A DNA stretch of 42,505 bases from Lautropia sp. SCN 69-89 (GTDB lineage Bacteria; Pseudomonadota; Gammaproteobacteria; Burkholderiales; Burkholderiaceae_E). Positions 1-10,351 of the stretch are shown in pieces. Position 1 is the first letter of the stretch. Each line of letters starts with the position of its first letter. Both the position numbers and the translations under genes were made by a program. Under the pieces are notes generated by a model that saw only the letters and a program-made list of their open reading frames with translations, was not told the origin of the DNA and searched no databases. The stretch is from the NCBI GenBank assembly GCA_001724855.1, contig MEED01000028.1:1-42505 (forward strand), given 5' to 3'.

Positions 1-236
1 TCTTCCCGAAGGCGCAGCGTGCCTGCGCCGACCCGCCCGAGCACTTGCCCGCTGTCGTGATCGTAGAGCGCGCGCACCTGGTCGGCGCTGGCCAGCGAGC
101 GCCGGAACGCCCCCGGTCGAATCACCTCCACGAACCCGCCCAGGTCGCGCGAAGGCGAATCGAAGACGGCGGCGTAGCCGGCCAGCTTGCCGCTGCCGGC
201 CGCGCGCAGCTCGCCGAAGGTGCGTCGCTCGATCAT
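1..236 (-). CDS. HK97-family prohead protease, N-terminal part (cut by window edge)
   Basis: Reading the minus strand from the ATG at 236 gives MIERRTFGELRAAGSGKLAG, then a YAAVFDSPSRDLGG stretch, IRPGAFRRSL and YDHDSGQVLGR. This is the beginning of the HK97 prohead maturation protease (peptidase U35), which cleaves the scaffolding domain of the capsid protein during head assembly. The DHD segment is the family's conserved N-terminal catalytic-histidine region. Only about 78 residues are inside the window. The ATG overlaps the capsid stop codon by one base (TGATG), so the two genes are probably translationally coupled. The protease lies downstream of the capsid gene, the reverse of the usual portal-protease-capsid order of HK97-like phages. 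The family call is firm; whether the gene is complete cannot be seen here. Confidence 0.85.
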   Translation of the reverse strand, partial: MIERRTFGELRAAGSGKLAGYAAVFDSPSRDLGGFVEVIRPGAFRRSLASADQVRALYDHDSGQVLGRVGAGTLRLRE

Positions 237-1426
237 CAGATGGTCAGGTCGTCCGCGACGACGAACGCGTCTGCGTGCCGGACGGCGACATCGACCGTGC
301 TCATCGCGCGCACCTGGACGTTGCCCTTGCTGAAGGCGGTCGTCTCGTAGGGATTGGCGAGGATGTCGATTTCGCTCCAGATGCCGAGCAGCACTTGCGA
401 CCAGTCGCCTGCGATCAGGCGGCCGGTGTTCGGTGTGCCAGTCTTCTCGGGAACCTGATTCGAGAAGTAGGCCGGCAGGTCCGCGATGCGGCCGTCCTGG
501 TAGATGAAGCCCGCGCCCGCGTCGCCGCTTACCTTCAGCGTGCCAGCGACCTTCGCCTTGACCTTCATCGACGCGACGATGTTGGCGGCCGGCGCGTTCA
601 CGATGTCCAGTTTCTGGAGCAGCGCCAGGACGTTGGCCCACGAGAGCGTTGCGAGGCTCGAGGTCTGCGGCGTCGAACTCAGCACGCCGTCGGGTTCGTT
701 CGAGCCGCCGCCGAGGATCGTCGCGCTGTCGATCGCTTGCGCGAGGATCGCGGCCAGGTCGTCACGAACAAGCTGTTCGATGTCGGGACTCGATTGCTGG
801 ATCAGTTGCCGCGACAGCTCGGTCAGCCCGCCCGCGTGCTTGGGCGCAAGCGTCACGCTGTCGAACGCCATGTCGGAAGGCGTGAGCGCCGCATTCTCGG
901 CGACCCATCCGGCAGTGAGCGACGTTTGATGCTTCGGGATCGAGAGATTGCCGCTCAGGCCCGAGAGCACCCGCACGCCCAGCCGGCGCGTGAGCAGCGC
1001 ATTGCGCAGCGGCCCGATGTACTGGTCCGGCCGGTGCTCGGTCGGAACGACTTCCGGCGCGCCGCTCGTCGTGCTCACCCGCTGCTCGATCGCGGCCAGC
1101 GGCACGAAGACGCCCTGCGCCTTGCGCCCGGTGCGGCGTTCGGTTTCGGCGTGGTACTCGCGCGCCGCGCCGTCCAGCGATCGGCCTTCCATCTGCGTGC
1201 GGATCACGTCGAGCACCGACACCCGCGACTGCAGGTCGCCGAAGGCACGATCGGAACCGCCGGCCGGCGTGCCCATCATGCGCCGCTCGGCTTCGACGAG
1301 GAACGATGCTCGCGCCTCGTCGGCCTCGGCCTTTTCGATCGACGCCTTGAGTGCGTCGAATTTCGCCTGCTCGTCGGCCGACAGCGAGCGTTTCTCGCCT
1401 TCGGCCTTTGCGAGCATCGCGCGCAT
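236..1426 (-). CDS. HK97-family phage major capsid protein
   Basis: The 396-residue product has a charged alpha-helical N-terminal delta/scaffold segment (about 1-65, rich in E, K and A), a variable linker, then the HK97 fold from about residue 95 (VFVPLAAIEQR). Family landmarks follow: GWVAENAALTPSDMAFD, LAPKHAGGLTELSRQL, an AIDSATILGGGSNEPDGVL loop and a C-terminal region with IAGDWSQVLLGIWSEIDI and VAVRHADAFVV. It would form the icosahedral head and be matured by the adjoining protease. The annotated ATG has no ribosome-binding site. Open sequence continues upstream (encoding FHALQAIREQRAGHVAE) to a TGA with no start codon in frame. An ATG at 1473 in another frame would give MLFKL and join this sequence if one base were restored near 1460. 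The real start may therefore be upstream, with a frameshift or sequencing error. Confidence 0.9.
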   Translation of the reverse strand: MRAMLAKAEGEKRSLSADEQAKFDALKASIEKAEADEARASFLVEAERRMMGTPAGGSDRAFGDLQSRVSVLDVIRTQMEGRSLDGAAREYHAETERRTGRKAQGVFVPLAAIEQRVSTTSGAPEVVPTEHRPDQYIGPLRNALLTRRLGVRVLSGLSGNLSIPKHQTSLTAGWVAENAALTPSDMAFDSVTLAPKHAGGLTELSRQLIQQSSPDIEQLVRDDLAAILAQAIDSATILGGGSNEPDGVLSSTPQTSSLATLSWANVLALLQKLDIVNAPAANIVASMKVKAKVAGTLKVSGDAGAGFIYQDGRIADLPAYFSNQVPEKTGTPNTGRLIAGDWSQVLLGIWSEIDILANPYETTAFSKGNVQVRAMSTVDVAVRHADAFVVADDLTI

Positions 1427-1473
1427 CTCGGCGACGTGGCCGGCGCGCTGCTCGCGGATAGCTTGAAGAGCAT

Positions 1474-1797
1474 GGAAGAGGTCTCACGCCGAAAAGTCGG
1501 CGACGAACTTGCGCGGACTGACAGTGCGACGCGCACGCGTCACTGACGCGTCACGCCTCCAACAAGCGAGCCATCCGCTCGATATGGTCGCGCGCGGGAA
1601 AGCGTGGGCATCGAAGGGGCTTGCAAGGGGCTTGCGAGGGGCATCGAAGCCACGGCCCGCGCGCGGGGGAAAGCGGGTCGGATCAAAGTGCAACGTTGCA
1701 CTTTGATTCCCACGGGCCCGCGCGCGCGGGAAGCCGTCGGCAATTAGTTCCAAAGAGGAACCAATACGTCACACGGGCCCGCGCGCGCGGGAAGCCG
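1474..1797. other. Repeat-rich non-coding spacer between capsid and upstream genes
   Basis: I see no credible gene in these 324 bases. The stretch contains short tandem repeats (GGGGCTTGC-type units, about 1618-1646), a long perfect palindrome (1682-1707) and two GC-rich direct repeats (1711-1738 and 1772-1799). It separates the regulatory/replication gene group from the capsid-protease group of the satellite-like element. A late promoter, a packaging (cos/pac) site or a regulator-binding region would all fit; the sequence does not decide between them. Confidence 0.6.
1682..1707. repeat. 26-bp perfect palindrome
   Basis: The 26 bases read the same on both strands, with core GTGCAACGTTGCAC flanked by ATCAAA and TTTGAT. 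It is AT-richer than its surroundings. A perfect two-fold symmetric site of this size directly upstream of the capsid gene group looks like an operator for a dimeric regulator or a nicking/packaging site. There is no T-tract, so a terminator is unlikely. Confidence 0.75.
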
Positions 1798-1799
1798 TC
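1711..1799. repeat. Pair of 28-bp GC-rich direct repeats
   Basis: Identical 28-base copies occupy 1711-1738 and 1772-1799, each starting CACGGGCCCGCGCGCG and ending GAAGCCGTC. They are separated by 33 bases that contain a small inverted repeat (GTTCC, five bases, GGAAC). A degenerate third copy sits near 1652-1676. The second copy runs into the stop codon of the gene ending at 1798. Function unknown; protein-binding repeats for packaging or transcription are possible. Confidence 0.75.
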
Positions 1800-2070
1800 A
1801 TTGCAGCGCCGGCCCTTCATCGAACTCCACTTCCGCGACAGTGTGAAACTCGTTCGTGCGATCGACCAGTAACAGGGTGATCTGCGGACGCCGGTCCGGT
1901 CCGCCGGCAATGAACCTCAGCCCCGGCCGGCAGCCCTGTTCGTCGAATGCCGCCGCGAGGTTGCGCCGCTGCTCGGCCGGCAGCTGCGCAATCCAGGCGG
2001 CCCAGGTGCGGCCGATTCCGTCGGCCACGTCGCAAAGTGCTTGCTGCGCGGCGTCGATGTTGTCGCTCAT
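1798..2070 (-). CDS. Small hypothetical protein of the satellite element
   Basis: This encodes 90 residues starting MSDNIDAAQQALCDVADGIG, with a helical N-terminal half (WAAWIAQLPAEQRRNLAAAF) and a beta-rich end (ITLLLVDRTNEFHTVAEVEF). A GGAGAA ribosome-binding site lies five bases before the ATG, which supports a real gene. No signal peptide, membrane segment or recognised domain is visible. It lies between the candidate origin repeats and the repeat-rich spacer upstream of the capsid gene. Its position in the early/regulatory half suggests a small regulatory or capsid-size-modifying role, but that is speculation. Confidence 0.6.
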   Translation of the reverse strand: MSDNIDAAQQALCDVADGIGRTWAAWIAQLPAEQRRNLAAAFDEQGCRPGLRFIAGGPDRRPQITLLLVDRTNEFHTVAEVEFDEGPALQ

Positions 2071-2154
2071 GTCGTTCTCCGATGCGCCCGCGCAGCCCTT
2101 TCGCTGGCAGGCAGTGATTCATGGAAGTGCGCAGAGATGGCAACCTCTAGAACA

Positions 2155-2364
2155 TCCCCGCAGCACGGACCGATGAAAAAATAGGCAGCGCACTTCGCGC
2201 AAAACCGCCGAGACCCGCGCCGGATAAGGCTTTCCGGCCAGTTGCGCGGCAATTTCTGTGGTCCGTGCTGCGGACCGATAGAAGTCATTTCTGCGCCTCC
2301 ATCGGTCCGTGCTGCGGACCACAAACCGGCCTTTTCGGGGGGGTATCGGTCCGTGCTGCGGACG
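2155..2364. repeat. Palindromic iteron-like repeats, 44-bp period (candidate replication origin)
   Basis: The 17-base element GGTCCGTGCTGCGGACC (6-bp arms, 5-base centre) occurs at 2260-2276 and 2304-2320, and with one end mismatch at 2348-2364. The starts are exactly 44 bases apart (2260, 2304, 2348), about four helical turns. A degraded copy in inverted orientation lies at about 2155-2171 beside an A-run (2175-2181). The two 27-base spacers are unrelated, so the elements rather than the intervals are conserved. The last copies run into the 3' end of the winged-helix gene (2285-2809). Iterons at or next to the end of the replication-protein gene are typical of satellite and plasmid origins; the assignment is inference. 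Confidence 0.65.
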
Positions 2365-2809
2365 ACAGAAACTGTTTTCCGTTGGCCGGCTTGCGCGCCT
2401 TGTTCGGGTCGATGCGAACGTCGGCCAGGTCGAAGAAATCCCCCAGCGGCCAGCCGGTCGCCGAGATGTCCATGCTCTCGTGCCAGTCGAGCCGCCACCA
2501 GGTGAAGCCCAGCCATTCGGACGTGCGCGGCGGATGGCCCATGCGCGTCTGGATGCAGAACCGCGTCGAGAGCAGCTCGCGCTTGGCCTTCACCAGTTGG
2601 TCTTTCGATGTCCAGCCGGCGCGACGCATCACCTCGAAACTGGGACACAGGCGGCCGTTGTTCTTGCCGCTGTACTGGCCCATCAAGTCAAGTGCCAGCG
2701 CCCGCCCCCGGAAGGACAGACGCTGCCACTCGAGCGATGCGATCAGCAGCTTGGGGACCGCGATGAACTGGTAGCTGATCGACCCCTTCGCGTGGCTACG
2801 CTTGCCCAT
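2285..2809 (-). CDS. Winged-helix DNA-binding protein, probable replication initiator or regulator
   Basis: This 174-residue protein starts MGKRSHAKGSISYQFIAVPK. The segment about 25-110 (LSFRGRALALDLMGQY, NNGRLCPSFEVMRRAGW, QLVKAKRELLSTRFCI) has the layout of the wHTH proteins common in proteobacterial phages and AlpA-containing islands, where a shortened replication-initiator-like fold is followed by a W-R-L strand (here WWRLDWHE). The C-terminal 30 residues (SSAARTD, CGPQHGP) are encoded by the 44-bp-spaced palindromes, so the tail may be repeat-derived rather than functional. The gene overlaps the PC4-like gene by 14 bp. Proximity to the iterons suggests it binds them. A purely transcriptional role remains possible. 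Confidence 0.65.
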   Translation of the reverse strand: MGKRSHAKGSISYQFIAVPKLLIASLEWQRLSFRGRALALDLMGQYSGKNNGRLCPSFEVMRRAGWTSKDQLVKAKRELLSTRFCIQTRMGHPPRTSEWLGFTWWRLDWHESMDISATGWPLGDFFDLADVRIDPNKARKPANGKQFLSSAARTDTPPKRPVCGPQHGPMEAQK

Positions 2810-3047
2810 CGTGACGGTTCCCCGCCGACGCGGCCAGTGCGTCTTGCGCGGCCTGCAGCGCCTCTACGACGGCCGCAATGGCATCCGACCGCAGCGATAC
2901 GCCCTTCGTCCCCGGACGCAGCTCGCCGCCACGGTCGAAGTACCAGACGCGAATGTCGGCGTAGGTCGTGCCTTTGAACTCGGACACCGAGACACGAAGC
3001 ATCTCGCGTCCGCGCGGCAGATCGAGGAAGACGGTCGGTTCACGCAT
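2796..3047 (-). CDS. PC4/p15-family transcriptional coactivator-like ssDNA-binding protein
   Basis: The 83-residue product matches the PC4 (Sub1/p15) C-terminal domain along nearly its whole length. It has an initial beta strand ending in RGREMLRVSVSEFKGTTYAD, then an IRVWYF strand, a turn, the PGTKGVSLRSD motif and a closing helix (AIAAVVEALQAAQDALA). PC4-like proteins bind single-stranded or melted DNA as dimers, and bacterial and phage versions are linked to replication, recombination and transcription. The gene sits in a tightly overlapping operon: eight bases shared with the preceding gene (3040-3330) and 14 with the following wHTH gene. A role at the element's origin is a reasonable inference. 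Confidence 0.8.
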   Translation of the reverse strand: MREPTVFLDLPRGREMLRVSVSEFKGTTYADIRVWYFDRGGELRPGTKGVSLRSDAIAAVVEALQAAQDALAASAGNRHDGQA

Positions 3048-3330
3048 GACGAACCCCCGCGTAGCTGTACCGCTTGACCCGCGCCCGCCTGCCGAAGCGC
3101 GTCGGCACTTCCTCCCAGCGGTCGATGATCGCGTAGCCCTCGGCCCGCAAGACGGCGATCGTGCTGTTAAGCGCGTGCTCGCCGATCCGCTCGGCCTCGA
3201 AGCGATTCAGGCTGCGGCCGGAACGAAGCATCGCCAGGACGCGGCCGATCTTGGTAGACTCCGAGTGTGCTGTTTCCTGAGCCGTCGCGCGATGCCAGTC
3301 GCCGGCGGCTTTTTCTTGGGTGAGGCCCAT
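3040..3330 (-). CDS. Phage-type winged helix-turn-helix protein
   Basis: The 96 residues comprise a polar N-terminal tail and, from about residue 28, a compact wHTH: VLAMLRSGRSLNRFEAERIG, then LNSTIAVLRAEGYAI and a basic end (RFGRRARVKRYSYAG). The LxSGRSLxRFEAE ... LNSTI pattern recurs in small regulators of prophages and islands. The ATG overlaps the TAA of the AlpA-like gene by one base (TAATG), so the two are translated together. It probably regulates the element or assists replication; target unknown. Confidence 0.65.
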   Translation of the reverse strand: MGLTQEKAAGDWHRATAQETAHSESTKIGRVLAMLRSGRSLNRFEAERIGEHALNSTIAVLRAEGYAIIDRWEEVPTRFGRRARVKRYSYAGVRHA

Positions 3331-3545
3331 TACGCGACCTCCATCGCCGATTCGGCTTCACGGTCACGCTGCCACTGGGTGTCCGCTTCGGCCGAGATGT
3401 AGCGACGGCGGCCGACCTTGTACGTCCGCAGCCGGCCCGACTGGATTTCCTCGAAGGCGCGCGTCCGTCCGACGCGGCGGACGTGGCACCATTCGGCGAT
3501 CGTGAGCGACTTTGCCGCAAGCGCGGCTTGAAGGATTTCCGACAC
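3330..3545 (-). CDS. AlpA/excisionase-like DNA-binding protein
   Basis: This encodes 71 residues with a MerR/excisionase-type helix-turn-helix: LTIAEWCHVRRVGRTRAFEE forms the HTH and QSGRLRTYKVGRRRYISAEA the wing. AlpA-type proteins act as recombination directionality factors and activate the integrase or early promoter; in Gram-negative phage-inducible islands AlpA is the master switch. The start is GTG at 3545 with an AGGAGTCGAAAG leader, chosen because the HTH begins immediately and no ATG lies upstream. It is the first gene of a four-gene overlapping operon (AlpA-like, wHTH, PC4-like, wHTH/rep). The 132 bases before it probably hold the operon promoter. Confidence 0.75.
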   Translation of the reverse strand: MSEILQAALAAKSLTIAEWCHVRRVGRTRAFEEIQSGRLRTYKVGRRRYISAEADTQWQRDREAESAMEVA

Positions 3546-3677
3546 CTTTCGACTCCTAGACTCCCCGCGTTCGGCGCGGTCCGCGATGCGTCACGCGAAC
3601 GCATCAGCGATCAATCTAGGAATCGAGCGGCGTCCGGTCGAAAAATCCGGCGGCAAATTTCTGCCCGCAGTTTTTCG

Positions 3678-4640
3678 CTATCCCCGGTCGCGCAGGCTTT
3701 GCAGCCATCGGCCATGCGAATCCGGGTGATCGGCCGCCTTCTTGAGCCAGTAGGAAACCTTCTCCACGTCCGCGCCGGCCAGGTCGAACAGCGCTCGCAG
3801 CACGTCGGCAGCGAACCCGGTTTCGGTCGTCTCGAACGGAATCTGATGTTCGAGAATGAGCCTTTCGACTGCCAGTGCGCGGCGAAGCCGCCAGTCGTTT
3901 TCCGCGTGGTCGAACTTCGGCAGGTTGTCCGCCGCCTTCCTGGTTGCCTCGACGGCGACGCCGACCATCTCACGCACCTGTTGCCGCGCCTCGCCGCCTT
4001 CGACCGTCGCCCGAAGTGGCTCCCGCAGCATCGACGCAAGCCGGTTGTCGGCTTCGCTGATCTGTACGCCGTGAACGGCGAGCGCATCGACCACGTTCGC
4101 GTACCAGAACCCAAGTGCGCCACTATCCAACTCGGATAGCGCCTGGTCGAACTTCATCAGCGCATTGGCGATCGAGTCCATCGCGCGCTTTCGATCCTTC
4201 TGCGATTTCGGCGTGATCGCCTCGAAAGAATCGACCGAATCGGCCCAGCTCTCGATGGTCCGGACGAAGATTCTGGCCTCGCTCCGCCAGTCGAATCGAC
4301 TGTTAGCCGGCGGCGTTCGCGTGGCGAGATACCGCCCAGCGAGCGCGGTCCGCTGCTCGTCCGTGAAGACCAGTTTGTAGTACACGTCGCCATCGCCATC
4401 GTCGTACTTGACGACGTTCGGGTCTTTGGCCTCCCATCGCCGCGCGCGCTCGGTTGTGTCCGGCCGTACCGGATAGACGGTTGGTATTCGGCTGGATAGC
4501 TCGCGGGCTTCCTCGGCCCGCCGGTGGAACCGCAGCGCGGCAACAATCCGCTCCGGGGTCAGCTCGACGCCGCTCGCCTCGAGGAATTGCAGCGCCTCCC
4601 GCTCGCGGTCGTTCAGGTTATTGAATCGGTCGTCGGTCAT
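3678..4640 (-). CDS. Hypothetical protein, accessory gene of the island
   Basis: The 320-residue product (start MTDDRFNNLNDREREALQFL, with a GAGG site six bases before) is soluble, acidic and mainly helical. No signal peptide, membrane segment or catalytic motif is evident. Visible blocks include a YDDGDGDVYYKLVFTDEQR beta patch, a long helical middle (IESWADSVDSFEAITPKSQK) and a helical C-terminus (AADVLRALFDLAGADVEKV). An in-frame ATG eight codons upstream overlaps the preceding stop and is less likely. It lies between the integrase block and the AlpA operon, the cargo position where satellites often carry phage-interference or defence genes. That location is the only functional clue; I do not recognise the family. 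Confidence 0.65.
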   Translation of the reverse strand: MTDDRFNNLNDREREALQFLEASGVELTPERIVAALRFHRRAEEARELSSRIPTVYPVRPDTTERARRWEAKDPNVVKYDDGDGDVYYKLVFTDEQRTALAGRYLATRTPPANSRFDWRSEARIFVRTIESWADSVDSFEAITPKSQKDRKRAMDSIANALMKFDQALSELDSGALGFWYANVVDALAVHGVQISEADNRLASMLREPLRATVEGGEARQQVREMVGVAVEATRKAADNLPKFDHAENDWRLRRALAVERLILEHQIPFETTETGFAADVLRALFDLAGADVEKVSYWLKKAADHPDSHGRWLQSLRDRG

Positions 4641-4647
4641 GCTCGCC

Positions 4648-5046
4648 TCACACGAAACGCCCATCAGACCATACCAGGCGCAGATGCCCGCCCGCTGTTC
4701 GCCCTTCCGGGATGTCGGGTCGCTGTCCGGCCATCGCCATCATCGTCTGGTATGCAAGCAGTCGATCGTTTGCGTCGATCTCGTCTTGCGTGCGTGCGAC
4801 GCGCACAGTGAATCGGACAGTGGGGCGAGCTCTAACGATGTAGATGCGCCGAATGCGTCGCGGGTCGTCGTCCGGGTATCTGACGTAGGTTCTAAGCTGC
4901 CCAGGATCGCCGGGTAGCGGGTCATCGGGACCGATGATCCCCGCCTCGAGTAGCTGCGCCCGACTGCCCGTGTAGTAGATGTTGTCCGTGCGCGCCTTCC
5001 GGCGCAGTGGCGGTTCCCCTCGGGTGCTATCTTGCGAATCAGCCAT
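4648..5046 (-). CDS. Hypothetical small protein next to integrase
   Basis: From the ATG at 5046 (GGAGGA ribosome-binding site eight bases upstream) this encodes 132 residues starting MADSQDSTRGEPPLRRKART. The middle has IYYTGSRAQLLEAGIIGPDD and RRIRRIYIVRARPTVRFTVR, mixed alpha/beta and arginine-rich, ending in GGHLRLVWSDGRFV. No family is recognised. The open frame extends upstream into the integrase gene's antisense-free region, but the strong ribosome-binding site fixes this start. Its stop is seven bases before the start of the 320-residue hypothetical, so the two are probably co-transcribed. Confidence 0.6.
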   Translation of the reverse strand: MADSQDSTRGEPPLRRKARTDNIYYTGSRAQLLEAGIIGPDDPLPGDPGQLRTYVRYPDDDPRRIRRIYIVRARPTVRFTVRVARTQDEIDANDRLLAYQTMMAMAGQRPDIPEGRTAGGHLRLVWSDGRFV

Positions 5047-5085
5047 GATCCGATCCTCCATTGATCGGGTTGTGGTCAGGGTCGG

Positions 5086-5103
5086 CCAGTGTTCGCGCAC
5101 TGG
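5086..5103. repeat. Small inverted repeat behind the integrase gene
   Basis: CCAGTG and CACTGG flank six bases in the roughly 100-bp gap between the integrase stop and the next gene. Without a T-run it is a weak candidate for a terminator; it could be a processing hairpin. Confidence 0.35.
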
Positions 5104-5147
5104 TCGGCCCGCCTTTGCCGATGAACCGCATCGGCCACGGTCAAACC

Positions 5148-6314
5148 CTACAGCGCCAGCGCGGCGAGCGCCTTCGCCGCGTGATCCTGCCGAAGATGCC
5201 CGTAGTGCGCCTCGATCATGGCGACACTCGTTCCGCTGATCTGCGCAATGGTCAGCAGGTCCAGCCCGCCGGTCACGAGGTCGGTAATGACGCTGTGGCG
5301 CAACGTGTACGCGGTCGTGGCCTGCGGCAGCTTCGCCGCCGTCACCGCGTCCCGGATCGGCGTCTTCCACCTATCCTTCGTCCAGTGTTGTCCGCCGGCC
5401 GTTCCGATGAGCGGCGCACCCGGAAGCTTGCTCTTCGCCTGCTCGGCGAGGAAGTCGGCCGTCGCCTTCGGGACCGTGATCCAGCGTTCGCCGCCGGTCT
5501 TGTCCACGCCGACTCGCAACGTCTTCAGCTTCGGATTGAAGTCGGCGACCGTGAGCGCGGCCAGCGCGCCCGGGCGCAGCGGCAACAGCGCCAGCCCCTT
5601 GAGGAAGGCTTTCAGCTCGTCGCTGGCCTTCTCGATCAGGCGCGACCGCTCCTTGCGGTCGAGATAGATTCCGCGCCGCCGGTCGGCATTCTTGATCGGC
5701 TTGAGCGCGACGCGCCAGGCGATGTCGGATGCGACCAGCCCGTTTTCGAGCGCCCGATTGAGCGCGGCCCGCAGCGGCACGATGTCGCGGTTTACCGTGG
5801 CCGGCGCGCGCGGCGTGGTCTTCACGCGCTCGCCGCGCCCGAGCCGAGCCGGTGCCGACGACATCCGATCGCGCCACGCTTCGAGGTCGCCCCGCTTGAG
5901 TTTGCCCAGCTCGATCTTGCCAAGCTTCGCGTCAATCAGGCGGCGAAAGTCGGCCTCGGTGCGCGCGGCCTTCTTCGCGTCGGTGCGGCGTATCGCCTTG
6001 ACGTGCTGGTCGCAGATGTCGGCGACCGTGAGCGCGTGCGGGACGACTCCGGCGTCAGCGGCATGGAACCATTCGAGCGCGGCCTTGAGCGCGGCGTCAT
6101 AGCGCCTGGACTGCGGATGCTCCGCGAACTCGCCCAGCGCCTTGTAGTGCTGCTTGCCGGTGCTCGGGTCGCGCAGCCGTGCCCACCATGTCCCGTGCTG
6201 CTCGCCGGTCTTCCGGAAACCGACGTACTGGCCGATCGCGTGCTTCGTCCAGACGATCGCGTCGGCGTCGATCGGCAGGTCGGCGCGTCCGCCCTTCGTC
6301 TTGATGTCGCTCAT
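5148..6314 (-). CDS. int: Tyrosine site-specific recombinase (integrase)
   Basis: The 388-residue protein has an N-terminal arm-binding region (about 1-75), a SAM-like core-binding domain (about 95-200, LTVADICDQHVKAI...) and a C-terminal catalytic domain. Catalytic landmarks are R in LLPLRPGALAAL, the LRHS box (R339), a SGTSVAMIEAH segment and the nucleophile Y371 in HYGHL. The first histidine of the usual HxLRH box is tyrosine (AYTLRHS), which is tolerated in this family. It would integrate and excise the element at the tRNA 3' end. The gene's start is about 145 bp from the right att copy at 6459-6502, with a large inverted repeat (6323-6374) between, the normal arrangement for a P4-like or satellite integrase. 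Confidence 0.95.
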   Translation of the reverse strand: MSDIKTKGGRADLPIDADAIVWTKHAIGQYVGFRKTGEQHGTWWARLRDPSTGKQHYKALGEFAEHPQSRRYDAALKAALEWFHAADAGVVPHALTVADICDQHVKAIRRTDAKKAARTEADFRRLIDAKLGKIELGKLKRGDLEAWRDRMSSAPARLGRGERVKTTPRAPATVNRDIVPLRAALNRALENGLVASDIAWRVALKPIKNADRRRGIYLDRKERSRLIEKASDELKAFLKGLALLPLRPGALAALTVADFNPKLKTLRVGVDKTGGERWITVPKATADFLAEQAKSKLPGAPLIGTAGGQHWTKDRWKTPIRDAVTAAKLPQATTAYTLRHSVITDLVTGGLDLLTIAQISGTSVAMIEAHYGHLRQDHAAKALAALAL

Positions 6315-6322
6315 AGGGGAGG

Positions 6323-6374
6323 GTCCGCAAAAATAGTTTTACGCGTGAAGCTTCCGTAAAACTCTATCGCGGAC
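6323..6374. promoter_or_regulatory. Two-tier inverted repeat upstream of int (candidate arm/AlpA-binding site)
   Basis: Nested symmetric arms are present: GTCCGC (6323-6328) pairs with GCGGAC (6369-6374), and AGTTTTACG (6335-6343) pairs with CGTAAAACT (6355-6363). It lies between the integrase start and the att core in unusually AT-rich sequence. It probably covers the int promoter and binding sites for integrase arms or the AlpA-like protein. No stop codon or T-tract makes it look like a terminator. Confidence 0.6.
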
Positions 6375-6458
6375 TTCGGCGAACAGTCAAGAACTAATCT
6401 CTGTTAAATCAAGTACTTGGCGAACCGCCACGAACGCCAGTTTGCTAGAGGAACTTCC

Positions 6459-6502
6459 TCCTAAGGGGAGGGTCGCACGTTCGATTCGTGCCGGGGGCGC
6501 CA
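6459..6502 (+). repeat. att repeat copy 1: 3' end of a tRNA, probably tRNA-Arg(CCT)
   Basis: The 44 bases run from an anticodon-loop-like TCCTAA through a T-arm (GCACG-TTCGATT-CGTGC) to an acceptor end GGGGGCGCCA with encoded CCA. No matching 5' acceptor (TGGCGCCCCC complement side) lies in the preceding 90 bases, so this is not an intact tRNA. It matches 8040-8083 at 42 of 44 positions. It is read as the right attachment site of the integrase-bearing element. Loop phasing C-T-CCT-A-A gives anticodon CCT, which is inference from the fragment only. Confidence 0.85.
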
Positions 6503-6653
6503 ATCCCGGGCCGTCGCTGCCTCGGCGCACGAACCGCGCATCGACCCGCCGGCCATCCTTCCGGCTGATCCATCCTTCTGGCCGATGGCACGTACGTTTG
6601 CCATCGTGCATCCTGAGAACAGGAGCGTTGCCTCGCAGTTGACATGTGATGAA

Positions 6654-6676
6654 CATGCAAACACCCTGTTTGCATG
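6654..6676. promoter_or_regulatory. Operator-like palindrome overlapping the FitA-like start
   Basis: Perfect 10-bp arms CATGCAAACA and TGTTTGCATG flank three cytosines, and the right arm contains the ATG at 6674. A TTGACA hexamer lies just upstream (6639-6644). Ribbon-helix-helix antitoxins bind palindromes at their own promoter, so this is the likely autoregulatory site. Confidence 0.7.
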
Positions 6677-6904
6677 AGCACGATGATCCAGATCCGCCAC
6701 GTCCCCGACGATACGCACCGCAAGCTGAAGGCACGGGCAGCGCGCGAAGGCCTCTCGCTCTCGGATTTCCTGCTGCGCGAAGTGCAGGCGCTGGTCGATC
6801 GCCCCAGCCTGTCCGAACGTCAGGCGCGACTGGCCGCCCGCGCACCGGTCAAGACCCGCGTCTCCGCAGCGAAAGGGGTGCGCGCCGAGCGTGATTCGCG
6901 GTGA
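6674..6904 (+). CDS. FitA-like ribbon-helix-helix antitoxin
   Basis: The 76-residue product has an N-terminal RHH: strand MIQIRHVPDD, then helices THRKLKARAAREGLSLSDFL and LREVQALVDR, followed by a charged C-terminal tail that normally wraps the toxin. This is the FitA/VapB class pairing with PIN-domain ribonucleases. Start choices are ATG 6674 or ATG 6683; the second gives the usual MIQIR beginning. Its TGA overlaps the GTG of the toxin remnant (GTGA), the classic coupled arrangement. As the cognate toxin is deleted, this is an orphan antitoxin. Confidence 0.8.
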   Translation: MSTMIQIRHVPDDTHRKLKARAAREGLSLSDFLLREVQALVDRPSLSERQARLAARAPVKTRVSAAKGVRAERDSR

Positions 6905-7114
6905 TCGTCCGCGACGCTTCCGCCGCAATCGAGTTGCTGCCGCTACCCGCATTCGATGCTGCTGCCCGCCGTCTGGGCCCTGCGCGAAAACGCCACCGCC
7001 TACGACGCCGCCTACCTTGTCCCGGCCGAGGCACTCGGCGCCACGCTGGTCACCTGCGACACGGCACTCGGCTCGATCCCGGGCGACCGCGCCCGCGTCG
7101 AAGTCATCCGTTGA
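6901..7114 (+). pseudogene. PIN-domain toxin remnant (FitB/VapC-like), internally deleted
   Basis: The first frame begins VIVRDASAAIELL, the start of a PIN domain with its first acidic residue. A different frame then gives LLPAVWALRENATAYDAAYL and LVTCDTALGSIPGDRARVEV, the PIN C-terminal half with the YDAAY and TCD acidic motifs. The full interval is 214 bases, not a multiple of three, and about 60 central residues expected in a PIN toxin are absent. A deletion around 6940-6955 removed the middle and broke the frame. The product would be inactive. Confidence 0.8.
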
Positions 7115-7179
7115 TCGCAGTTCTGGCGTCGGGGCGCGGCTTGCGGTCGCAGCATCGCTAGCTTGACCTACGGGCTATT

Positions 7180-7203
7180 TTGTGCCCCAATATAGGGGAA
7201 CAA
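7180..7203. promoter_or_regulatory. Inverted-repeat operator before the UPF0175/DUF3368 pair
   Basis: TTGT-g-CCCC and GGGG-a-ACAA arms surround AATATA (7189-7194), centred about 27 bases upstream of the antitoxin ATG at 7219. Position and symmetry suit autoregulation by the antitoxin or the complex. The AATATA centre could also provide a -10 element. Confidence 0.6.
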
Positions 7204-7218
7204 TTTGAGCGAACCACC

Positions 7219-7551
7219 ATGCATGTCTTCACCGTCCGCGAACTGCGCGAACGCTCTGGCGACCTCAGCCGCGAGGCCGAGGAAGGCCGGCTTGCGCTCG
7301 TCACCCGCCACGGGCAGCCGCTGTTCGTCAGCGTTCCCTTCACCGACGAGCTACTGGAAGTGGGTGTCCATACGGCATTGGCCGTCAACCTTTTCAAGAG
7401 CGGCGAGATCACCTCTGCGCGCGCAGCCAGGCTGGCACGGATGAGCCTGCCGCAGTTTTTGGCGCATCTCAGCGCACAGGGCATTCCGGTGGTCGATCAC
7501 GAACCGGCTGAACTGGAGCAAGAACTCGCCGCCTTCGATGCGGCGCGATGA
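7219..7551 (+). CDS. Antitoxin: Phd-like N-terminus with UPF0175 domain
   Basis: From ATG 7219 the product has 110 residues. Residues 1-35 (MHVFTVRELRERSGDLSREA, then a LALVTRHGQP turn) resemble a Phd/YefM DNA-binding beginning. Residues about 45-95 (HTALAVNLFKSGEITSARAA, MSLPQFLAHLSAQGIPVVDH) are a UPF0175 antitoxin domain. A longer reading from TTG 7180 would put the start inside the palindromic operator, so 7219 is preferred. It overlaps the toxin gene by four bases (ATGA). It probably neutralises the DUF3368 protein and represses the operon. Confidence 0.75.
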   Translation: MHVFTVRELRERSGDLSREAEEGRLALVTRHGQPLFVSVPFTDELLEVGVHTALAVNLFKSGEITSARAARLARMSLPQFLAHLSAQGIPVVDHEPAELEQELAAFDAAR

Positions 7552-8045
7552 GTCGGCCCGTTGTCGTCTCCGATGCCGGGCCGCTGATCGCGCTGGCCGG
7601 TTGCGGACATCTGGACCTGCTCGTCGCCGTGTTCGATGCCCTCCATGTGCCGCAGGTTGTGCTGGCTGAAACCACGGCAGATCGTTCGCGCCCAGGTGCG
7701 GTCGACATCGCTGTCTTCGTAGAGGCCCACGCGCAGGTGCACCCCGACCGCGATGACCTCGTCTACAACACTGCCGCCAGTCATCTGGACGAAGGCGAAG
7801 CGCAGGCCCTGAGCCTGGCGCACGCGCTGGGATGTGGCGTGCTGATGGACGAGCGTCGTGGCCGCCAGACCGCAATCCGTCAAGGCGTGCCCCTGTTCGG
7901 CGTGCTGGGCGTACTGCTGCAAGCCAAGCGCATCGGCAAGCTCGAATGCATCGCACCAGCGCTGGATCGGATGCAGGCCAACGGCTATCGCGTCTCGCAG
8001 GCTCTCGTCGATGCGGCCTTGAAGCTCGCGGACGAATCATCCTGA
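7548..8045 (+). CDS. DUF3368 PIN-like toxin
   Basis: The 165 residues show PIN-like landmarks: SDAGPLIALA at the N-terminus (first acidic residue), LDEGEAQALSLAHALG in the middle (acidic pair), VLMDERRGRQTA and GVLGVLLQAKRIGKL, ending with ALDRMQANGYRVSQALVDAA. DUF3368 proteins are the usual partners of UPF0175 antitoxins and are presumed nucleases. All expected acidic motifs are present, so it may be active. The stop codon TGA (8043-8045) lies inside the tRNA-derived att repeat 8040-8083, so the last codons are set by the junction. Confidence 0.8.
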   Translation: MSRPVVVSDAGPLIALAGCGHLDLLVAVFDALHVPQVVLAETTADRSRPGAVDIAVFVEAHAQVHPDRDDLVYNTAASHLDEGEAQALSLAHALGCGVLMDERRGRQTAIRQGVPLFGVLGVLLQAKRIGKLECIAPALDRMQANGYRVSQALVDAALKLADESS

Positions 8046-8083
8046 GGGGAGGGTCGCACGTTCGAGTCGTGCCGGGGGCGCCA
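8040..8083 (+). repeat. att repeat copy 2: 3' end of the same tRNA
   Basis: This matches 6459-6502 at 42 of 44 positions; the two changes are A to G in the loop (TCCTGA) and T to G in the T-loop (TTCGAGT, the more canonical tRNA form). It bounds the 1.6-kb toxin-antitoxin islet on its right. The canonical T-loop suggests this copy is the original chromosomal tRNA tail. No complete tRNA precedes it. Confidence 0.85.
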
Positions 8084-8105
8084 GCGATGCCGTCGTCGCG
8101 GCCGA

Positions 8106-8270
8106 TCAGGGCGTCACCACCTGCGTGTGAAACTCGACTCCGAGCGCACGCTTGATCGCAGCGAAGACCGCCGAAATGTTGCTCATGGCCGGGTTGCCCG
8201 ACTTCGACAGCATCCGGTGCAGGCTCCTGGCAGGCTTGTGAATCTCCTCGGCGAACGCCGTTCCCTGTCC
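8106..8270 (-). pseudogene. C-terminal fragment of a putative addiction-module antidote (XRE-type)
   Basis: The minus strand encodes FAEEIHKPARSLHRMLSKSG followed by NPAMSNISAVFAAIKRALGV and EFHTQVVTP before a TGA at 8108-8106. The LHRMLSKSGNP ... ISAVFAAIKRALG pattern is the end of HigA-like antidotes of RelE/HigB-type addiction modules. There is an in-frame TGA at 8273 and no start codon, so only about the last 54 residues survive. Too short and overlapped for standard gene finding. Confidence 0.7.
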
Positions 8271-8324
8271 TCACGGTCGGGCGTAGCATCGCACTACGCA
8301 TCGCCGACTCGCCCGGAGGAAAGC

Positions 8325-9254
8325 ATGAGCACACGCGCCGGAATCCTCTCCTGCATCGGTAACACCCCGCTGGTGCGTCTCGAAGCGGTCGTGCCTGGCG
8401 GATGCGCCGAAGTCTGGCTCAAGCTCGAGGGAGGCAATCCCACCGGCTCGTACAAGGACCGGATGGCCCTGTCGATCGTGCGGTCGGCGATGGAGCGAGG
8501 CGAGCTTCGCGCGGGCGAGCGGGTCGTCGAATACACCGGCGGCAGCACCGGGATGGCGCTGTCCTTCGTCTGCGCGGTCACGGGACTGAAGTTCGCGGCG
8601 GTGTCGTCCGACGCGTTCGCCGCCAGCAAGCTCGCCGGTATCCGGGCTTTCGGCGGCGAACTGCTGATCGAGCGCAGCGAGGGTGGCGCGATCACGCCGG
8701 CACTGATGCAGCGCATGAAGGAACGTGCACATGCACTGGCGAAGGAACCCGGCAGCTACTATGCAAACCAGTTCGGCTCGCCCTACGTGCCTGCCGGCTA
8801 CCAGTCGATGGGCCGCGAGATCGCGCAGGCGCTCGACGGACGCGTGGACGCGCTGTGCGCGGGGGTCGGAACGGGCGGCGCGCTGATGGGCACCTTCGAC
8901 GGCCTGGCCGCATCGGGCGCCGCGCCGCGGGCCTGGGCGCTCGAACCCCTGCAGTCGCCGTTGCTGACCGAAGGCCGCGGCGGCGCTCACAAGGTGGAAG
9001 GCATCGGCGTCGGTTTCGAGCCGCCGTTTCTCGATCGCAGCCGCCTCGCCGGCATCCGCGCCATCGACCAGGAAGAGGCCTTTGTCATGTGCAGGCGGCT
9101 CGCCCGCGAAGAAGGGATCTTCTCGGGGGCGTCGACCGGCCTGAACGTCGTGGGGGCCATCGAACTCGCGCGCGAACTGGGGCCGGGCAAGCGCGTGGTC
9201 ACACTGGCCTGCGACAGCGGACTGAAATATCTTGGCGGACACCTGTTTCCCTGA
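8325..9254 (+). CDS. PLP-dependent cysteine synthase-family enzyme
   Basis: The 309-residue protein starts at an ATG with a textbook GGAGGAAAGC site. It has the fold-type II pattern: CIGNTPLVRLEAV, GGNPTGSYKDRMA (Schiff-base lysine in SYKDR), TGGSTGMALSF (substrate/phosphate loop), GVGTGGALMGTF (PLP-phosphate glycine loop) and a late FSGASTGLNVVGA. O-acetylserine/O-phosphoserine sulfhydrylases and cystathionine beta-synthase-like enzymes share these. The usual TSGNTG loop is TGGSTG, so the substrate may differ from O-acetylserine. It is followed after 13 bases by a metallophosphoesterase gene. The family is clear; the exact reaction is not. Confidence 0.85.
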   Translation: MSTRAGILSCIGNTPLVRLEAVVPGGCAEVWLKLEGGNPTGSYKDRMALSIVRSAMERGELRAGERVVEYTGGSTGMALSFVCAVTGLKFAAVSSDAFAASKLAGIRAFGGELLIERSEGGAITPALMQRMKERAHALAKEPGSYYANQFGSPYVPAGYQSMGREIAQALDGRVDALCAGVGTGGALMGTFDGLAASGAAPRAWALEPLQSPLLTEGRGGAHKVEGIGVGFEPPFLDRSRLAGIRAIDQEEAFVMCRRLAREEGIFSGASTGLNVVGAIELARELGPGKRVVTLACDSGLKYLGGHLFP

Positions 9255-9267
9255 CGGATTACGACGC

Positions 9268-10304: not shown

Positions 10305-10351
10305 AATTACCATCCTCGGCGAATGGTGCCGCGGCGACCCGCTCCGCGCCA

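Follow-up and report, generated by a model that had tools for sequence, protein, structure and literature searches.

The first 6,502 positions of contig MEED01000028.1 (C28) of Lautropia sp. SCN 69-89 are very probably one end of a ~10.8-kb phage satellite that encodes its own capsid, lacks a tail and resides in a tRNA-Arg(CCT) gene. The window analysed is the entire contig, 42,505 nt of an assembly that comprises 3.81 Mb in 70 contigs; the feature under study, positions 1-6502, is the integrase end of the element, whose genes lie on the minus strand. The integration site, the gene content of the window and the kinship of the element are seen directly, and the portal, the HNH protein, the small and large terminase subunits (TerS, TerL) and the lack of tail and lysis genes are deduced from relatives, above all the loci L007 and L009. 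In its working the element would resemble a capsid-forming phage-inducible chromosomal island (cf-PICI), the kind of satellite proposed in an earlier reading of the letters alone (the original prediction). Because it has its own shell and packaging genes but, judged from these relatives, no tail, it probably spreads by means of helper tails.

Integration is site-specific and uses the element’s own integrase. The tyrosine integrase gene (5148-6314, minus strand; PF00589, E 1.3e-8; phrog_1, E 3e-39) encodes a protein 76% identical to that of L009. Sequence comparison places the right attachment site, attR, at 6456-6502 (plus strand), a copy of the 3' end of tRNA-Arg(CCT) that is identical at 46 of 46 positions to the intact tRNA-Arg(CCT) gene on contig C10 (C10:366-441). 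That gene is adjoined by attL, and C10:1-365 belongs to the element: C10:149-274 matches the DNA directly after L007 terL (85%), C10:149-449 matches the post-terL DNA of L009 (74%), where that stretch reaches a tRNA, and C10:3-149 is the end of a small open reading frame (ORF), identical at 19 of 47 positions (E 0.003) to the one next after terL in L090. The side at the tRNA is therefore the terminase end. Two genomes of the same genus lack the element and carry both flanks around one uninterrupted tRNA-Arg (G072, locus L141, with the C10 flank at 83% and the C28 flank at 85-93%; G070, locus L133, at 74% and 89%), so that a single insertion has C10 on one side and C28 on the other. The left portion, which the original prediction expected to find with portal, connectors and terminase on extension to an intact tRNA, does lie outside the visible 6.5 kb, and the tRNA was found with post-terL-like DNA beside it, but the middle, estimated at ~3.9 kb by counting on L007, is missing from the assembly altogether. 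This gap presumably holds what the relatives have there, namely the rest of the protease, portal, HNH, terS and terL, for an estimated total of roughly 10-11 kb. Portal and terminases are indeed present in L007 and L009, but connectors are not.

Read from 6314 down to 3, the minus strand encodes the integrase, two ORFs, an AlpA-like helix-turn-helix (HTH) protein, a winged-helix protein, a PC4-like protein, a 174-aa winged-helix protein, a small ORF, the capsid and the start of the protease. All of the genes named in the original prediction were thus recovered with Pfam and PHROG profiles, the AlpA-like one weakly, and no tail or lysis genes were found in 1-6502. The element encodes its own HK97-fold major capsid protein (236-1426, minus strand; 396 aa from the first standard start codon, which is unusually placed; PF05065, E 3.1e-37; phrog_617, E 3e-68), 93-94% identical to that of L007, and its own prohead serine protease, truncated at the contig start after the first 78 codons (3-236, minus strand; PF04586, Peptidase_S78, E 1.4e-18; phrog_80). 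The AlpA-like gene (3330-3545, minus strand), a candidate activator or excisionase, matches HTH_17 at E 0.0055, below the Pfam cut-off, and the excisionase family phrog_2907 at E 0.057; copies 76-78% identical occupy the same position in L007 and L011. Beside it stand a winged-helix gene (3040-3330, minus strand; HTH_39, PF14090, E 1.1e-7; phrog_4973) and a gene for a PC4-like single-stranded-DNA-binding protein (2796-3047, minus strand; PF02229, E 4.1e-15). The host fits the betaproteobacterium that had been suspected from the letters, and the capsid of the same-genus genome G060 has the contig coordinates of that in ‘Burkholderiales bacterium 70-64’ (MKUQ01000012).

The 174-aa protein (2285-2809, minus strand) is the presumed replication initiator, Rep. 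It has homologs in 40 loci, and the AlphaFold2 (AF2) model is a winged helix, with block means above 90 for residues 31-90. The protein itself has no Pfam match, and 28 members of its family have weak ones, to MarR_2 in eight, RepA_N in five (best E 0.026) and Phage_rep_O in two (0.0013). In a profile search of PDB sequences the best match was to an IclR regulator (E 0.0022) and the next to 4pta, ‘Replication initiator protein’ (0.018). Foldseek placed CodY first (0.0066); three pSK41-type RepA domains followed at 0.014-0.045, namely 4pt7 (‘Structure of initiator’) and the pair 4pql and 5kbj (‘Structure of Rep-DNA complex’).

The iteron-like repeats noticed in the original prediction withstood comparison with controls. 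With two mismatches allowed, the 14-mer GTCCGCAGCACGGA occurs in four copies, one of them inverted, at spacings of 44-44-106 at and after the 3' end of the rep ORF (2158-2374, the presumed origin), and none of nine control stretches of the same element reached four. Across 41 loci, 550-b stretches at the rep 3' end contain two to six copies of a 14-mer, and in 34 of these no control stretch of the same locus attained that count; controls did so in the remaining seven (L007, 1/25; L068, 4/18; L098, 1/35; L100, 1/36; L102, 1/35; L113, 2/28; L115, 30/35). The iterons at the end of rep, which are new in this analysis, are lineage-specific: that of the window and that of L007, CCCCGCAGCACGGG, have spacing and core in common and differ in their matching arms. 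PICI origins lie directly behind the initiator gene, according to the available part of PMC6092414, and the same layout here points to a Rep-iteron origin. No match to a Pri-Rep protein or primase was found in 1-6502 with Pfam, PHROG and our own profiles, the 328-aa ORF described below being without assignment; primase-type genes occur in L009, L012, L092 and L096.

What the gap should contain is indicated by the relatives. Capsid relatives were collected from viral contigs (138 stretches, 80 kept) and species genomes (35 loci), and profiles grown from L007, L012 and the window were run over 119 loci, many of them cut contigs. These profiles recovered the capsid in 118, as they would by construction, protease and portal in 110 each, HNH in 92, TerL in 82, a connector in 56 and a closure protein in 37. 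In beta- and gammaproteobacterial loci the recurring order is capsid-protease-portal-HNH-terS-terL-(connector-closure); in several alphaproteobacterial loci HNH-terL precedes the capsid. L007 measures 10.4 kb from the integrase to the post-terL motif and has 14 assigned genes and a single leftover ORF (at least 60 aa, coding strand), with protease, portal, HNH, TerS and both TerL domains confirmed by Pfam. L009 begins with the integrase at its first base and runs to a tRNA-Arg at 10,338 (~10.3 kb); its single long unassigned ORF is primase/helicase-like. From integrase to terminase (~10 kb), no tail or lysis gene was found in either locus, and in the closest relatives the stretch from portal to terminase is likewise free of tail genes. 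Fourteen of 42 leftover ORFs in nine relatives were searched, and neither they nor the L009 ORF matched tail or lysis families; some are primase/helicase-like. Flanking repeats were found in 18 of 40 loci tabulated. Repeats of 15-20 nt may be due to chance and the 31-nt repeat of L104 looks like a terminator, and size was therefore taken from repeats of at least 43 nt, which delimit seven loci (L019, L093, L096, L098, L099, L100 and L111) at 10,365-10,886 bp. Direct repeats of 77-141 nt at the two ends mark six of the 80 viral contigs as circles, of ~9.8-10.3 kb.

The connectors divide the family. In 50 loci TerL is followed by at least 400 b of sequence; among these, our own profiles found connector and closure genes in 29, the connector only in 11 and neither in 10 (L007, L009, L021, L024, L038, L090, L093, L096, L097 and L106). 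In L007, L021, L024 and L097 less than 700 b follows terL; in L009, L093 and L096 a tRNA or attachment-site copy stands within ~0.3 kb after it. No head-tail connector gene was found by profile in 1-6502 or C10:1-460, the gap lying outside this search. Since L007 and L009 are without these genes, the lineage may take gp6-like connector and head-closure proteins from its helper.

Among 50,697 phage records 77 matched the capsid, all below 60% identity, the best among 20 matches listed being 37%. The AF2 model of the capsid (mean pLDDT 75) has its nearest structures in siphophage R4C and then in the capsids of the Rhodobacter capsulatus gene transfer agent (GTA). This fits the grouping of the E. 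coli cf-PICI capsid with the R. capsulatus GTA capsid in the available part of PMC12846349, no cf-PICI capsid being among those compared here. The capsid also matched 9gyi, ‘Major head protein’, weakly (E 0.0029). After removal of capsid stretches under ~330 aa, 128 rows were reduced to a tree of 64 by dropping rows more than 85% identical to a kept row; its ‘sat’ label was assigned by how rows were fetched. The window falls within a clade of 38 rows, made up of beta- and gammaproteobacterial loci and viral contigs (support 92/97). A second clade holds 13 rows (ten alphaproteobacterial, one planctomycete and two viral contigs; 99/98), and outside both stand eight phage rows, one of them a Klebsiella plasmid record, and five prophage-like rows. 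L087, L088, L089, L121 and L123 were rejected as satellites, as they group with phages in this tree; the capsids of L087-L089 sit in long open frames of 636-690 aa. L035 and L037, with their tail-like genes, were too similar to kept rows to pass the 85% filter, and the 38-row clade is for that reason not to be called free of tailed elements.

Could the missing middle hold a tail? A complete HK97-type prophage, or an element whose own tail genes lie in the assembly gap, is unlikely. Such a reading draws on the unseen content of the gap and on L035 and L037, in which two tape-measure-like ORFs (L035:7886-9969) and a tail-fibre-J-like ORF (L037:8969-10045) follow the portal and no terminase is found by profile. 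These are more distant relatives, with capsids 56-58% identical to that of the window, and may be tailed prophages, chimeras or satellites with tail parts; they do make clear that a capsid alone is no proof of a tail-less element. Terminases are likewise not found by profile in L031, L042 and L095, which also have capsid, protease and portal, and L094 is without terL. Speaking against a prophage, C10 carries the post-terL DNA of L007 and L009 and the end of an L090-like small ORF, which makes the tRNA side the terminase end, and the closest relatives have nothing of a tail between portal and terminase. A domesticated, GTA-like capsid instead of a mobile satellite is highly improbable: GTA capsids are the nearest solved structures after R4C, but the element has its own integrase, attachment-site copies of the tRNA, an uninterrupted site in related genomes and its own replication module, and its occurrence is scattered, with a capsid match in 5 of 74 genomes of the host family (its own included) and only one other above 60% identity.

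The remaining observations that weigh against a tail-less and active satellite concern the state of this copy and the reach of the evidence. The capsid frame has no ATG, GTG or TTG from the upstream stop to the codon at 1426, and L007 starts 16 codons earlier; the conserved N-terminus of the relatives continues in frame through 1427-1486 (minus strand) without their start codon. The gene recX, present in L007, was not found by profile in 1-6502, and on these two grounds the copy may be decaying. That it is a decayed, immobile remnant is rather improbable, though much less so than a prophage or a GTA: integrase, regulators, Rep and 396 capsid codons are open, and the 46-nt attachment-site copy is identical to the tRNA end. 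A remnant would agree with the satellite as to kind and depart from it as to present action. The middle is absent from the assembly, where Pfam profile searches that were positive in control genomes returned no terminase or portal family and PF05065 once only, and two single-protein searches without a control, using the portal and TerL of L007, returned no match. L007 was delimited by eye, 0.56 kb remaining after terL; tabulation gave no flanking repeat for L007, L009, L090 or L097; and the AlpA assignment combines weak scores with positional conservation in relatives. The cf-PICI-like satellite of the original prediction accordingly stands as far as L007 and L009 carry it, without tail or lysis genes, and has to be qualified where it expected connectors, which L007 and L009 lack, and by the tail-like genes of L035 and L037; with Pri-Rep not found in 1-6502 either, the element is cf-PICI-like rather than an established cf-PICI.

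Assuming such a satellite, a helper phage would switch the element on through the AlpA-like switch, and the element would excise and replicate from its iterons by means of its own initiator. It would build its own HK97-type head, into which its own HNH, TerS and TerL would package its DNA. These heads would be joined to helper tails, with the helper also supplying lysis and, in the lineage of L007 and L009, perhaps connector and head-closure proteins as well.

Several known systems share parts of this design. With a cf-PICI the element shares the integrase and its own capsid and protease and, as far as weak scores go, an AlpA-type gene; its relatives add portal, HNH and terminases, with no tail gene found in L007 and L009. 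The seven repeat-bounded relatives measure 10.4-10.9 kb, unlike the cf-PICI mean of 14 kb, and the Burkholderiales host is absent from the cf-PICI host list, both according to the available part of PMC10803314; a further difference is that a presumed winged-helix Rep with iterons was found and no Pri-Rep, and L007 and L009 are without head-tail connectors. No reference cf-PICI was obtained for comparison: in a search for distant matches, E. coli genomes gave none to 4 kb of the PA7 element, and an E. coli Sakai stretch guessed to hold one contains the prophage remnant Sp1 and the P4-like Sp2 and was not used. PICIs, including the Staphylococcus aureus pathogenicity islands (SaPIs), and P4-like satellites as a rule package into helper-coded capsids. 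The element is like them in being small and integrated, with AlpA-like regulators and a replicon of its own (partly from the available text of PMC6092414), and unlike them in its own capsid and protease. Its capsid is akin in fold and sequence to those of the R. capsulatus GTA and of R4C, but the GTA is not a mobile element and R4C is a tailed phage. A capsid module with terminases and without tails is also found in the cf-PISP satellite-plasmids of Vibrio, as described in the available part of PMC13230959; the element under study differs in being integrated, and the plasmid kind is represented by its circular relatives L074, L079, L080, L081 and L083. These five viral contigs of ~10 kb combine RepM (75-97% to the RepM of an Acinetobacter schindleri plasmid, L283), a plasmid replication DNA-binding protein and a capsid-to-closure module, and no integrase was found in them by profile; from their gene content they would be capsid-encoding satellite-plasmids outside Vibrio.

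Capsid-forming satellites are thus already known, and what is new is the winged-helix Rep with lineage-specific iterons, the relatives without connectors and the five circular RepM plasmid forms. A literature search returned no title or abstract on this betaproteobacterial capsid-satellite family; the main cf-PICI catalogues lay outside that search and may include it. In the available parts of the sources, the known capsid-forming satellites come for the most part from enteric and Gram-positive hosts, and the present analysis places a compact version of near-constant size in environmental Beta- and Gammaproteobacteria, with Diaphorobacter, Halomonas and Vreelandella as named carriers; complete relatives are found in Diaphorobacter nitroreducens DSM 15985 (L092) and in Vreelandella strains (L102, L103). 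A broader reading, tentative and short of an even chance, is that there is a wide proteobacterial lineage of ~10.5-kb capsid satellites apart from the published cf-PICIs, in which the capsid-protease-portal-HNH-terS-terL block is constant, replicon and residence are exchanged (islands with the unnamed Rep-iteron family, primase types, integrase-less RepM plasmids), and the connectors are gone in some lineages, probably including this one, whose heads would then need to match the connector of the helper. Two questions become testable: what minimum of proteins couples the head of a satellite to a foreign tail, and how easily one and the same capsid module passes from chromosomal islands to plasmids or back. 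Two orphan Rfam RNAs are also given a place inside satellites.

Proteo-phage-1 RNA (RF03044) follows the last terminase or connector/closure gene in many members (L004:182-244, L007:15336-15397, L021:10502-10592 and L090:15370-15462, among others). In an Rfam search of 15 loci it scored above the gathering score in eight (L012, L021, L024, L050, L067, L068, L090 and L098) and below it in L049, and was not reported in L007, L009, L061, L062, L097, L101 or C10:1-460. A model built from 13 members gave matches in 23 of 82 and 11 of 35 sources (E at most 0.05), all on the coding strand, 13 of these 34 being the sequences that built it; C10, L007 and L009 score 19-23 bits, and a smaller search gave one minus-strand match, in L092. 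The match follows terL or a connector or closure gene in 28 of the 34 and stands elsewhere in L031, L042, L043, L116 and L119; in C10 the preceding gene is unseen. When the pairing between loop and 3' end is included as a pseudoknot, pairing holds in 94.8% of cells and covariation is 0.623 against 0.154 in shuffles (none of 500 as high), the structure having been derived from the same sequences on which covariation was scored. The motif was rejected as a packaging (cos) site or satellite-specific RNA, as numerous unrelated phage contigs have it as well: at least 120 stretches of viral contigs fitted its pattern, 52 of 80 loci listed have no capsid-satellite family genes upstream by profile, and in some contigs the motif adjoins, by eye, seemingly unrelated terminases or repressors. 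It is therefore a wider phage RNA, and the claim is limited to its steady place in capsid satellites. A search of 369 genomes, with 12 candidates scored per genome, yielded one weak match below the cut-off and was too insensitive for use. Further RNAs sit in the regulatory part of satellites: int-alpA RNA (RF02996) lies after the integrase and before alpA in three of the 15 loci (L012:1843-1909, L021:2419-2487 and L097:7369-7436), and of the antisense immunity RNAs, C4, c4-a1b1 and isrK exceed their gathering scores in L061 (L061:1995-2174) and C4 alone does so in L068 (L068:2399-2590).

Other features of the window are less readily assigned. Between capsid and Rep lie a 90-aa ORF without a Pfam or PHROG match (1798-2070, minus strand), conserved in L005, L007, L008 and L011, and the non-coding, presumed control region of the structural module (1540-1797), with three GC-rich repeats (1654, 1715 and 1776) and a perfect 26-nt palindrome (1682-1707). 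A topoisomerase-like 293-aa protein (phrog_6247, E 6e-38) occurs in 11 loci, directly before the capsid in L005-L008 and L011 (L005:962-1837, L007:8963-9841), and was not found by profile in 1-6502. On the integrase side, a 328-aa ORF (3678-4664, minus strand) drew no assignment from Pfam and PHROG profile searches and has a distant homolog (28%) beside the L019 integrase; a 132-aa ORF (4648-5046, minus strand) was likewise unassigned by either, and over its start lies a possible antisense RNA like SymR or PtaRNA1 (5041-5113, plus strand), below both Rfam gathering scores (43.3 bits against 61 and 41.7 against 47).

Beyond attR, window positions 6503-9260 are read as older material accumulated at a tRNA-Arg hot spot, including a second attachment-site-like copy (94%; 8037-8083, plus strand; repeat search and sequence comparison) that lies outside the satellite. 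In G070, sequence matching the window from 9268 onward begins ~110 b after the tRNA; in G072 a homolog of 6503-7112 sits between the tRNA and the later flank. By eye, 6503-9260 contains ORFs resembling toxin-antitoxin genes. In G065 (contig C91) ~24 kb separates the tRNA from an attachment-site copy. In G064 (contig C27; L145, L285) a related integrase (74% at the DNA level) adjoins an identical 44-nt copy on an 11-kb contig in which no capsid-module gene was found by profile; this integrase is thus common to another kind of element too. Elsewhere in the Lautropia genome, C40:8000-27999 (L289) holds a lambda-like tailed prophage with portal, head protease, a different type of major head protein, a tape measure and a J-like tail protein, a possible helper or tail donor.

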